64,000 nucleotides of DNA from assembly GCF_963576545.1 (NCBI RefSeq), contig NC_083651.1, forward strand, positions 19,027,248 to 19,091,247. Direction: 5' to 3'. Within the stretch, counting starts at the first letter, position 1; each line of letters opens with the position of its first letter. Source of the stretch: Limanda limanda. Lineage: Eukaryota > Chordata > Actinopteri > Pleuronectiformes > Pleuronectidae. The notes under the pieces were generated by a model. The model did no database searches, was not told the origin of the DNA, and saw nothing but the letters and a program-made list of their open reading frames with translations. The position numbers and the translations under genes are program-made. Shown piece after piece: positions 12,001-21,000 of the stretch.

Positions 12001-15000
12001 TTTCATTTTATAGCACCACATTTTAAATTATGATATGAATGAGGCACCTCTTCATTTGCTGCATGTCAACATGCGCATTGATACTGAGTCAACTTATGTG
12101 ACAAATGTTTTTTATCTCAGCCATGGGGTATCATCTATGTTTGTCTGTTAGTTAAAAGGATTACGCGAGAACTACTGGATGGATTTACACTAAACCTGGT
12201 GGAAAGATAGTAAAAGGATGGTAAGAAAATAACCCTTTAAATTTTGGTACAGATCCAATTGAGGGAGAGGAGAAAGAATTTTTTTTTCTCACTTTCTTTA
12301 ACAAAGTTAGAATGTATTTTTCAATATGTCTTTTTGCTCTCACTTCAACTAATAAACCTTCATCACAAGTTATTAGGACCTGATCAGTACACAAAGTTTT
12401 CTTAGTGTTTGTTTGATTCACTCCAGAGTTTATGAGGCAGCATTTAACATCAGCAAAATGAGTCATCAATATTTTACGGCTCAGTACAGCTCGAGACGTG
12501 ACGCGAGCGGACAGGACTCAGTGTTAAAGTGACTGAGGATCCGGATTCATGATCCCACACAATCGATTAATATGTAAATACATGATCATAGGTTTGTCGT
12601 CTAAATCATCCCCCAAAAAAAACAATTGAAGTTGTGAACTATTTCATTTTCATCTGTATGAACTGAACTTTGAACCAGTTCTTTTCAAGTGTGAGCACGG
12701 ATTCCTAGAGTGTTATCAAGGATGATGAAGCACATTCGGTACAGTGAAACCAGACAGCTGCTGGTATGGTACGTGCAAATAGAAGGGTGTGGTATAACTT
12801 TTTATATAATGTTTTTTTTTAGCCTAGATTGGCAGAAGTGTACGTGCCGGTCCTGTTTCAAGTTCTTCTACATCTTACATCAGATGTTCTCATCAGAGTC
12901 ACCAAGTGAACAACACTCACTACTGACTGAGGAATGGAAAAGATCTGCATTGACAAGTGTCCAGTGAACCAGCTCACAGGTTTTTTGTGTTCAGGTATGT
13001 GAGTGTTGTCTGACAGAAAGCTTTGAGGGGCAAACAAGAATGCACACGAAAGGTTCCACACCTACAAGGAACAATAGTCCTCACCGTGCTCCTGCATCAC
13101 GTGCTATCCACAAATCGCCAAGATGACAGATTTGTTCTTTTAACTGCAGTGAGGCGTCAAGATTTATGCAACGATGCAGTCGCTCTTCTCTCTCACAGAC
13201 ACACGCATGCAAACATGTCTGCGGAAAGGCATGACGAACACAGTGAAGCAGAATGTACGAATGTAACCGCGCAGTGACAGTGGCGGTCTAACCTGCTGAG
13301 CCGCCTGCAGCGTGTGCTCGATGGCAGCCTGGATTCCTTCCGTGACCTCCGACAGGTTGAAATGACTGGTATTTACAGAACGTGCAACTTCCCTCATCAA
13401 GGTTACCACAGGGGTCTGAAGGCTTAGTAGCATCACTGAAAAAGAAAAGATTTGATTCACATGAATGGCATTATTTAATAAATATACACAGGTAAACAGC
13501 AGGTAAATCAAATAAGAAAGTAGTTTCAGGTATTTTATGGTTTGCTTTGCAAGGCCAACCAGATCTACTGGTGTAATGTAAGTTTATTATTTGCCATGAT
13601 ATGTGCCTCCTACACACAGTAGGAGTCTTGTTCCTTCTTGATGATTTATCATGAATGATCATTTTCAGCCTAGGAACAGTCTATCCCTTGTCCAGGCTAT
13701 TCAACAGGTGAGATAATAGCCTCGCTGTCTCGTGGCGTTCTTACCAGTCTGTGCTTGCATGTTGTTCAACAAACTCCCCAGGATTTTCTCAAACAGCGGG
13801 ACGACAGACGAGATATTATCCCACAGCTCCGTTCCCTCGAGGGACGAGAGTAGGGATTGAAGCATCTTTTCAAGGCTGTGATAAAAGATAAAAATAAATA
13901 AATACAGAATTAAAAATGCACTATCATCTCACACAGACATTTAAAGCATCAGATTAACCAGCACGAATTAGTGAAAACCCAGTTGAACCCACTTGTCCCA
14001 CATGTGCTGGTCGGCCTTGCCGCTCATCAACTGCTCCAGGAAAGGGGAAAGGTGAGTGAAGATCCCCAAGGATGAACCAATCGACTGCTGCACGTCTGGC
14101 ATTCCCATGAAGAACATGCTCACAAGTCTTCCCAGCTGAAAAGAAAGAAGGGGAAATTATATATTAATATATATTTATTCTGGTAAATCAATCATAGCCA
14201 TCAAATATGATGACAAGGCAGAGTACAGGACACACACACTTTGATAGGAGCATTAAAATTGTGTTTTTTCTTGTGTTTGTTTCTCTGTGATTATTAAAGA
14301 TTCCAAGTTTCAATAATCCCACGACTATAATGCAGGTGTGGTTTGTGAGCGGTCGTTGGCCGACCATTCCAGTATCACCAGAGATTCAGATGTTATATCA
14401 GCATTTTTGAAATGTCATGTAATGTTTGACTTGCTGACCCGCCTTTTATATTTATATTTTTTCCCACTTGTGTTTTTACATCAAACTTTCTTAAAAAGAG
14501 ATAAAACAGACAGTTTATAAAGATGACGACATGACTGCTCCCCAAAAGTGAAGCCAAAGCCTCTTTATCGCCCCCTGGTGGTTGGCAGCAGAAGTTAAAA
14601 ATAAATTTGAGTCGAAGGACATGTACGATTGTTCCTCAAAGATAGTCTCTGTCAATTTAGCTAGTTCTTATCACAATAATGTATGTTCAACTGTTATTTT
14701 TTACAGTAAGTTTTGGTTGAAATAATTATTCCAAGCTATAAAAACTGAATAAAATATCAGGATTGACAACTGACACTGACTCGCCATTCCCGATCTCCAC
14801 AATACCGACTGTTTGCAGCGTTCACACATTTTGGCTCCATTTTCATGTAGCAGAAGGAAGAGGAGATGTGTCGGCCATCTTTATATACAGTCTATGGATA
14901 AAACTTTTCATACACTTGTTTAAAGCCTTACCTCGACAATAAGCATAGGAACATCTTGTAGTGATGCCCTCTCAAAACGTGCCCAGAGACTCATATTACC

Positions 15001-18000: not shown

Positions 18001-21000
18001 ATTATTGACTATGGCTCAAAATGCGCAAGATTGCAGCGTTCATATATTTTGGCTCCATTTTTGTATACATATATCTATGGATAAAACCTTTCATACACTT
18101 GTTTAAAGCCTTACCTCAACAATAAGAATAGGAACATCTTGTAGTGATGCCCTCTCAAAACGTGCCCAGAGACTCATTTTACCTGAAATCACAACAAACA
18201 TATGACCCACAATCCTCACGTGAGCACTTTAATTCTTTGACATCTCTTAGGCCTGAATAAAGAAGTGCACTTCATCCGAGGATCAGGATTCAACACGTCC
18301 AGCTAAAGTGACACTGAGAAGCGGACTTGCCTTGGCCTGACTCCAGAATGAAACGGGCGATGCTAATGACCACAGAGACGTAGGTCCGAGCTGTGCTGTT
18401 CGGCGGCAGAAGGCTCTCGATCGTCTTCAGCTCACTCAAAATCCTTGAGAAACAAAGCAAGTACATATTTCAACATCTGAACGTGTCTCATAAAAAGAGT
18501 ATGTCTCATAAAATTTGATTAGAGGGTTGAAGACGGTGCTCCAGCATGCGTCCCACGTTTCTGTTTGATTTCAGAGGGCTTGTTAATTAAGATCCCTGGA
18601 ATGCGGAGGCCTGGTGGGTTTTTTGTAGTTAACGACTGGGACCATTTTCCTGAGATTTTAAATAAATATAATAAATGTTCATTATAAGTGGATGTTAAGG
18701 CAGTCAGCTTCTTTATAGCATTTGGGTTTTTTTAAGGCAAAGAGTTAATTTCTAAAATGTCCAGTTAAAGCAAGAATAGTTTCATATATATATACAGATA
18801 ACTCTGCAAGATTTCATCTGTGTCTTTTTGTCTGGTGTTTTGTATGTTAGATGCAAGGATTACGCAATTATGACCCAGAGCAAATCTGGTTTAACTGGCA
18901 GATCCAGAAACCTTTTTTCTTTCTTTCTTAAACACGGCGAGATAGGGCATTCGCTTTGGTGGAGATATGCGGTGTCCAAGCTGCCCCCACACACTGAATT
19001 TGTATTAATGAAAACATTATACACAATGGGACAGCAATGCAACAAAACTCATTAACCTTTAGTGGCGAACTGGCAATAAGACATTTTCATTCTTGAGCAC
19101 TATTTCAATTTCTTAATCATTTCAAACCATTCAAATACTCCTACTGCACAAACACTGAATATCTTTCAAAAGCGAATTCAATTATTTTATGTAATTAATG
19201 AATATGTGGTTTATCTAATTCTATCCACATTTGTTATTTATCATTTGGTCGAATGAAAAAATATTTCACTCACATGTGATTCCAGATGTCTGGTCCACTA
19301 TCTCCCGAGGCGCTCTCAAAGAATGTTGCTACCACTTTGATTCCAGGAATTATGTATACAGCATACATCTCCGGTATTATGGTTTGGACGACGCTCTCAG
19401 CTCTCTCGAGGATGAGGAGGGAGATGTTTCGTGATGAGTCAAAGTTCTTGTCTGGCTGGACGATGAGCTTCAATGAAGCCTGCACAATATCCAGGATGTC
19501 CTGTTGTACCGAGTGCGGCAGGGGCCCTGTGGCTCCAGTCAGGAGCATTATGGTGGTTTTGACTCCTTCCACGATGGCGGCTACGAAGTGATCACTTTGA
19601 AGGCCCCCTGGTCGCTCAGCCACCATTAGCCCTTTTACGATGGAGCGCATAGTATTGAGAACTGCAGAAAGATAGATGTCTTCACCCTCATTGAGGAATA
19701 TAGACGTTGTCTGCAGCAGGTGAAGAATGTCTGTCACAGGGGTAGATATATTGATGGAAGAATTCCCCCATTGAAGCATACTCGTGAAGATCAACGGGAC
19801 ATTGGGTTGTTTCATCCACTGCTCTGTGACGTTTAGGTAAAGCTGAATTTGAGCCGCGATAGCATTGAAAGCGGTTGAATTGAAATACTCCTCTGGACCC
19901 ATCATGTTCATCTGAGCCTCTAGGTTCAACTTTATGCTGTCAAATAGGCCCTTGAGAATCTCGACAGTTGTCAGGCCAATTTTATTCAACCCTGCGCCAT
20001 CTATTGGGAACTGGAGGGTTTTTATCAGGTGCTCAATCTGTTTAGATACAGACAGAGAAAAATCGGTCTGTGCAAGCTGTAATGTAACTTGCATTTGTGT
20101 GATGACGAAAAAGGGCTGGAGAATCTCTGACACCATGCTGTTGCTGGTTATATTTCCCAACTTTTTCAAGTACCAGTCTATAATCTCCAAATATACTTTC
20201 TGGGCATACATGGGGTCCATCATCAAGGTCGTGTTTAAATTGTTGTATGGTTCCATGTTGGCAATCAGTTGTATCAGCCGCTCCACCACTTGGATTTCAT
20301 TCATGATCTCTGGAGAGTTCAGGTGATTCTCCTGGAGGCTCAACTTGATATTGGCCAGAGTCCTGTTCAAGGTGTGTTCGAGAACCACATTTGGATTGTT
20401 ACTGAAGTTAGCTTGCATGAAGTCTCTGAAAGTTGAATTGACAATTAACGGGATAAGGGAGAGGATGGCCGTCTGATTGCGTAGACCAGGTACGCGTGTC
20501 AGAAAATCGCTGAGACCCGTGACCAGCCCAGTAACACACTGGGCTGTCACCATCAGGTCCTGATCTGGTTCAAAGCACTGGCGAGTATTGATGATCTCCA
20601 TTATACTTAACAACAGGCGGTTTATGTCAGCAGCTCCAGCTAGTGCAGCAAAGCTATTCAGCTCTTTGAGGGTTAGGTTTGACTGTCTCAGAGCATTCTG
20701 GACATCCGACACAGAAATGTTGGGTGTAGCCACGAGCAATCTAATTAAGTGAAGAGTCTGTTTGACTGTTTTCACACTGGCAGAATCATTTGGGCCAAGG
20801 AGGAGTGAGAAGACAAAGGATGTAAGTTCCTCATATTCCTGTGCTACCAGAGAAGCATTTGTGGCCGCCAGTTTAATGGTGACAGTACCGTTGGCTGAGA
20901 GCATCAGGTCGAATATCTGATCCAGGAAGCTGAGGATTTCTGAGATTCCTGCCAAACAGTCCTGGCCTGCTCCACATTTGATAATGTAATACTGCAGAGC

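Follow-up and report, generated by a model that had tools for sequence, protein, structure and literature searches.

The window analysed here, 64,000 nucleotides of the dab Limanda limanda (contig NC_083651.1, positions 19,027,248 to 19,091,247), contains on its minus strand a part of the gene abca12, which encodes a lipid transporter of the ATP-binding cassette (ABC) family. Within the region coding for extracellular domain 1 (ECD1) a block of 289 codons is found three times in tandem. We consider it very likely that this is a genuine protein-coding triplication which began with a duplication broken inside an exon and the gain of a new splice acceptor, obtained its third copy later and was then partially homogenised, and that similar growth has taken place in other fishes.

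A spliced model of the minus strand was built from splice-site and coding scores. The annotated protein P0001 (abca12 [Limanda limanda], 5113 aa), 100% identical over query residues 600-2300, was mapped exon by exon to the window over aa 1-3290, with one exon join left unplaced; its boundaries agree with the spliced model at every module exon described below and at the giant exon. Since the window ends at about residue 3290 of P0001, the transporter core lies outside, and so do the precomputed Pfam domains of this protein (PF00005, PF12698 and PF23321; two ABC ATPase domains, ABC2_membrane_3 and the C-terminal R1). In P0014, a single-copy relative, these domains were found by hmmscan. Identity to an annotated abca12 together with these domains supports the assignment to ABCA12 (ABC subfamily A), in line with the preliminary description of an ABCA12-like transporter; transport of glucosylceramide is what the name alone would suggest. 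The available tables of the fish ABC surveys are without ABCA13 in teleosts, and lengths and gene counts are reported there (e.g. 4758 aa, marine medaka).

The exons and repeat units concerned are the following:

19274..21901, minus strand: giant abca12 exon, 2628 bp, of which the 3′ 686 bp are A1 (open frame, AG/GT sites, P0001 mapping)
19274..19959, minus strand: A1, 3′ end of the giant exon, 686 bp (self-comparison, spliced model)
18331..18443, minus strand: exon B1, 113 bp, GC donor (spliced model, P0001 mapping, as for all exons below)
18115..18182, minus strand: exon C1, 68 bp
17150..17835, minus strand: exon A2, 686 bp, stand-alone, new acceptor
16629..16741, minus strand: exon B2, 113 bp, GC donor
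16375..16442, minus strand: exon C2, 68 bp
15556..16241, minus strand: exon A3, 686 bp, stand-alone, new acceptor
15147..15259, minus strand: exon B3, 113 bp, GC donor
14932..14999, minus strand: exon C3, 68 bp
17836..19959, minus strand: repeat unit 1, 2124 bp, A1-B1-C1 plus intron (self-comparison, as for units 2 and 3)
16242..17835, minus strand: repeat unit 2, 1594 bp
14635..16241, minus strand: repeat unit 3, 1607 bp

In all three copies A, B and C add up to 686+113+68 = 867 bp, that is 289 codons, and the copies follow each other head to tail with an open frame, corresponding to aa 1409-1697, 1698-1986 and 1987-2275 of P0001. The spacing of the A copies is 2124 and 1594 bp, and the repeated DNA continues to 14635 within the intron after C3. 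Coding identity of the 867-bp blocks is 95.3% (copies 1-2), 96.1% (1-3) and 95.3% (2-3), with no indels in the exons. The claim of an in-frame triplicated 289-codon block with the same exon lengths and phases is thus confirmed by exon lengths, open frames and the P0001 boundaries; the approximately 95% identity noted before agrees with the measured values, and the proposed in-frame growth of an extracellular domain is supported. Two details have to be adjusted. The description as a three-exon module fits B, C and the exons A2 and A3, whereas A1 is the tail of the 2628-bp exon (21901-19274) and does not stand alone. Each copy does contain multiple N-glycosylation sequons, but "about seven" was slightly high, the counts being 6, 6 and 7.

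Tandem repeats are known to provoke assembly errors, and some repeats of other species that are 98-100% identical may be artefacts there. That misjoined reads or alternative haplotypes placed head to tail produced the Limanda array is nevertheless highly improbable. The copies are 3.9-4.7% apart in exons. Nine pairwise intron comparisons gave mismatches at 2.0-16.7% of the bases aligned and 1-5 indel events each; the A-B intron alone measures 830, 408 and 296 bp in copies 1, 2 and 3. The window has no N bases, and searching the 717-Mb assembly with exon A yielded at least three matches, all of those listed lying within the array. The same module ends also occur in the protein models of plaice and halibut.

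How the block may have been duplicated without loss of frame is suggested by its borders:

19960..19962, minus strand: GAG, exon-side parental breakpoint within the giant exon (junction alignment)
14635..14637, minus strand: GAG, intron-side parental breakpoint after C3, where the repeated unit ends (junction alignment)
17836..17838, minus strand: CAG of the A2 acceptor, the duplication junction with intron sequence 5′ and exon sequence 3′ (homology ends and starts here)
16242..16244, minus strand: CAG of the A3 acceptor, a copy of the A2 junction (self-comparison)

Homology between the C3 intron and the intron before A2 stops at 14635/17836, and from the very next base on the sequence is homologous to the giant exon. 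With the break marked by a slash, the parental exon reads CTGTCGAG/ATTC, the parental intron CTATCTTTGAG/GAAC and both derived junctions CTGTCTTTCAG/ATTC; the junctions ahead of copies 2 and 3 are identical. The GAG common to both parental sites suggests joining by microhomology, while the derived junction has CAG and reads CTTTCAG/ATT. In a simple home-made acceptor score this change raises the value from -2.2 (GAG) to 2.0 (CAG). The intron after C is in phase 0 and the block begins with ATT as a whole codon, so adding it leaves the reading frame unchanged. In the mechanism we propose, the first tandem duplication would have linked a site in the phase-0 intron that follows exon C with one in the interior of the giant exon ahead of it, and the CAG at the junction would act as splice acceptor so that the cut exon tail becomes a new internal exon starting on a codon boundary. 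The third copy would have come from a later unequal exchange, with conversion or unequal crossing-over partly keeping the copies alike within a species. The junction would then be a clean example of an exon-internal duplication break that stays in frame through acceptor gain.

The preliminary description had considered the growth recent, and this needs correction. The comparison of modules in abca12 of related fishes that it called for was made: the plaice protein (P0002) has three modules and the halibut protein (P0071) two, with ends and unit length as in Limanda, whereas turbot and sole have other units of 221 and 98 residues. The halibut model starts with MLIGQ, the residues that close its own C part, which makes a further upstream copy likely (probably three in all). 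The predicted differences in copy number between species are therefore seen at the level of protein models. Identity of the copies at the protein level is 91.0-93.1% within Limanda, 87.9-92.4% within plaice and 99.3% within halibut, compared with 85.1-87.5% between Limanda and plaice and 83.7-86.9% between Limanda and halibut. In a tree the plaice copies group together (97/97), as do those of halibut (98/93). Ten alignment columns vary in both Limanda and plaice, and 8 columns are fixed differences between the species. At columns 16, 18, 45 and 105 Limanda copy 2 shares its state with plaice copies 2 and 3 (column 18 also with halibut), and columns 101 and 269 have a state specific to copy 1 in both Limanda and plaice. 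Identical module ends in three genera and these shared copy-specific residues indicate that the duplication probably predates the splits, and the high identity is probably better read as partial homogenisation. An independent recent duplication of the block in each flatfish genus would account for the identity being highest within species (halibut above all), for the 8 fixed differences and for columns 127 and 257, which conflict with copy orthology by pairing Limanda 3 with plaice 2. We regard it as unlikely because unit length and ends are identical in the three genera and because of the states shared at columns 16, 45 and 105 and, for copy 1, at 101 and 269. Duplication before the split followed by partial homogenisation is the simplest reading of what is protein evidence only.

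The Limanda array looks like one case of a recurrent expansion zone in the ECD1 of fish ABCA12. We scanned 159 ABCA12-like fish proteins (isoforms included) for tandem self-similarity; they are the best matches from three fish-query searches and not a species census. A tandem run was present in 61 of the 159 and a strong run, defined as 80% identity over at least 60 residues, in 51. The latter were assigned by hand to 27 lineage groups on general taxonomic grounds, a few of the species being looked up. In 19 of the 27 groups some strong run has an identity of 97.0% or less; the other 8, at higher identity, are Scophthalmus, Odontesthes, Mastacembelus, Tautogolabrus, Siniperca, Epinephelus lanceolatus, Centroberyx gerrardi and Oreochromis, and there may be assembly errors among them. 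The units differ in length between lineages:

289 residues: dab, plaice, halibut
632 residues: Sander, Perca
168 residues: Trematomus
163 residues: Sebastes
221 residues: Scophthalmus
372 residues: Odontesthes
304 residues: Mastacembelus
235 residues: Dicentrarchus
204 residues: Notolabrus
167 residues: Acanthopagrus, Pagrus
98 residues: Solea
104 residues: Eleginops
153 residues: Oreochromis
225 residues: Carassius, Puntigrus, Cirrhinus, Pseudorasbora
267-306 residues: catfishes and loaches
about 350 residues: Alosa

The suggestion that the expansion is lineage-specific thus holds, but it is not singular, as tandem units of different length occupy this region in further fish lineages. The longest model listed, P0128 of Pseudorasbora parva (6175 aa), has about 6.6 copies of the 225-residue unit at 76% identity. 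The additional units of Trematomus, Sebastes, Acanthopagrus and Notolabrus stop within a few residues of the end of C and start variously inside A, which at the protein level is a layout like that of Limanda. Elsewhere the units end inside C (Scophthalmus, Salarias, Tautogolabrus), in B (Eleginops) or past C (Labrus, Dicentrarchus). Epinephelus lanceolatus (330 residues) and Centroberyx gerrardi (Beryciformes, 327 residues) have nearly the same unit, starting near the start of B, which suggests that phase-matched introns were reused; Epinephelus coioides, moara and fuscoguttatus and Centroberyx affinis are without the unit of their congeners. Some models have no run at all and disagree with other models of the same species, namely those of Scophthalmus (P0043), Sander lucioperca (P0052), Dicentrarchus (P0068, P0035, P0036), Mastacembelus (P0093), Oreochromis (P0116) and Alosa (P0157). 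A wider tree was made of 75 copies from 42 chosen of 127 proteins; after removal of short fragments it rests on 140 columns and has 32 starred branches among its 71 inner ones. Here copies group by species or close kin in Salarias, Dicentrarchus (100/74), Notolabrus, Labrus, Tautogolabrus, Scophthalmus, Solea, Sebastes and Eleginops; the notothenioid copies fall together, and so do those of the three flatfish genera. The sparids are contrary cases, as their copies do not sort by species: copy 1 of Acanthopagrus joins Sparus, while its copies 2 and 3 lie apart. Of the 61 proteins with a run 57 have a Walker A motif, and in these every run stops at least 700 residues ahead of the first such motif; the other 4 lack the motif. 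With repeated in-frame growth in ECD1 and none seen in the core, ECD1 appears to tolerate length change or to be selected for it. Among the titles listed from the open-licence literature (for part of the searches 20 of 553 and 15 of 179 matches) we found no description of internal repeats or recurrent expansion of ABCA12.

From the annotation we infer that all three copies are present in the Limanda mRNA, since the one model listed for this species joins them. In other fishes the isoforms differ by whole units: those of Sebastes umbrosus (P0008/P0010/P0029; 5121/4958/4632 aa) by multiples of the 163-residue unit, those of Carassius gibelio (P0130/P0134/P0147; 5945/5720/5270 aa) by multiples of 225 residues and those of Dicentrarchus (P0017/P0035; 4581/4346 aa) by one unit of 235 residues. 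Whole modules may therefore be spliced in or out, and as the 867-bp block runs from phase 0 to phase 0, skipping in frame would be possible. There is accordingly a small chance that the extra copies, while genomic, are optional or mutually exclusive and that many mRNAs contain fewer modules. However, the Limanda model listed includes every copy, A1 belongs to the giant exon and does not permit a simple swap, and the whole-unit isoforms may themselves be short-read artefacts over repeats.

Several observations weigh against the triplication history favoured here or against parts of it. For the comparison species the evidence is that of annotated proteins. The tree leaves the three Limanda copies unseparated from those of plaice, and the 75-copy tree joins Limanda 2 with plaice (93/59), so that homogenisation in Limanda rests on identity; columns 127 and 257 have been mentioned. 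At the junction, an AAG nine bases downstream scores 4.0 as an acceptor, above the 2.0 of the CAG, and also keeps the frame, so the actual splice point may sit three codons later. With GAG at both parental sites, either the junction mutated to CAG once it had been joined or the intron after C3 has since changed. The structural model of the module discussed below is of moderate confidence (predicted local distance difference test, pLDDT, 70; predicted template modelling score, pTM, 0.57). Finally, the ratio of nonsynonymous to synonymous change (dN/dS) between copies is 0.45, 0.56 and 0.70, but pair 1-3 is close to neutrality in the 5′ half of A (dN 0.052, dS 0.051) and in B+C of pair 2-3 dN exceeds dS (0.045 against 0.023), both on few sites. 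With values around 1 or above in parts, constraint may be relaxed.

These ratios, together with the relaxed selection on new protein tandem repeats that PMC5120217 reports as general, would suit extra modules that are near-neutral passengers without effect on transport. This is a serious possibility, although we give it somewhat less than even chances: the frames are undamaged, the 3′ half of A has a dN of 0.008-0.016 vs a dS of 0.053-0.067, and repeats have been retained in many lineages. As about 3.4% of random changes would be nonsense, the lack of stops is weak evidence, and the lack of exon indels is the stronger. The resulting ABCA12 would be longer by 578 residues in ECD1 and would carry 13 additional N-glycosylation sequons there. 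Prediction from an 18-sequence alignment gave an all-helical module with 13 helices, to which no fold relative could be assigned. The module profile matched no natural protein of known structure at E 0.01, the one weak match being a designed helix bundle, and at the same threshold neither exon A3 nor the giant exon matches any Pfam family. The extra modules probably lengthen a helical structure on the lumenal or extracellular side of the membrane and add to its glycosylation. PMC7948424 reports that ABCA13 depends on its long N-terminal region to localise to vesicles and to internalise cholesterol; by analogy, an effect of ECD1 length would be plausible.

More speculatively, and at present doubtful, the ECD1 of fish ABCA12 might be a length-tunable module array, reset in length again and again by in-frame tandem duplications with breaks inside exons, new acceptors, partial homogenisation and possibly module splicing, and selected for its length at the body surface. 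The resulting proteins would, to our knowledge, be the largest ABC transporters. The role of the giant extracellular region of ABCA12 and ABCA13 is poorly understood, and fishes offer a natural length series of one to about seven units for the effect of ECD1 length on localisation and lipid transport.

Along abca12 (1005-36937, minus strand) the exon end phases 2-1-0 occur six times in 34 exons, compared with a shuffle mean of 1.2 (p 0.00015), when module copies 2 and 3 are excluded and one phase is taken from our own model. This hints at an ancient growth of ECD1 out of three-exon units; in 78 profile comparisons no homology was detected between the sequences of the putative units, the best probability being 18% vs 4.4% for reversed controls. 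Two long GA microsatellites in abca12 introns (6120-6250 and 11424-11557) are 92-93% alike, each lying near an exon. The window further contains exons of a protein O-fucosyltransferase gene at about 41573-44623 on the minus strand (Pfam O-FucT), which we take to be POFUT2, and tubulin-like gene pieces, presumably of alpha type, at 47430-48401 and 50827-51729 (minus strand) and at 58901-60749 and 63328-63929 (plus strand). Both tubulin-like pieces tested have Pfam Tubulin and Tubulin_C, and two last exons that face in opposite directions share 96.3% identity across 934 bp, a pattern that gene conversion or a recent duplication would leave.

Tandem repeats with homogenisation are already known (PMC5120217); the term ABCA is absent from the main text of that paper. 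In common with the repeats described there, the Limanda copies are adjacent duplicates, may be under relaxed constraint and are more alike within a species. They differ in that the unit is a three-exon, 289-residue block with introns and in that lineages use different units in the same domain. Tandem exon duplication, as described in PMC9741552 and PMC9013439, likewise yields phase-compatible tandem exon copies, but the Limanda modules appear to be added together and not swapped, and the left break is exon-internal and creates a new acceptor. As in human ABCA13, a very large exon encodes part of the extracellular domain, the giant exon in Limanda and a 4.8-kb exon in human ABCA13, the latter according to the title of a 2002 paper cited in PMC7948424. 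PMC7948424 itself gives ABCA13 as the predicted largest ABC protein with 5058 aa. Limanda ABCA12 has 5113 aa and the longest fish model listed 6175 aa, and the growth here has come from closely matching tandem modules.

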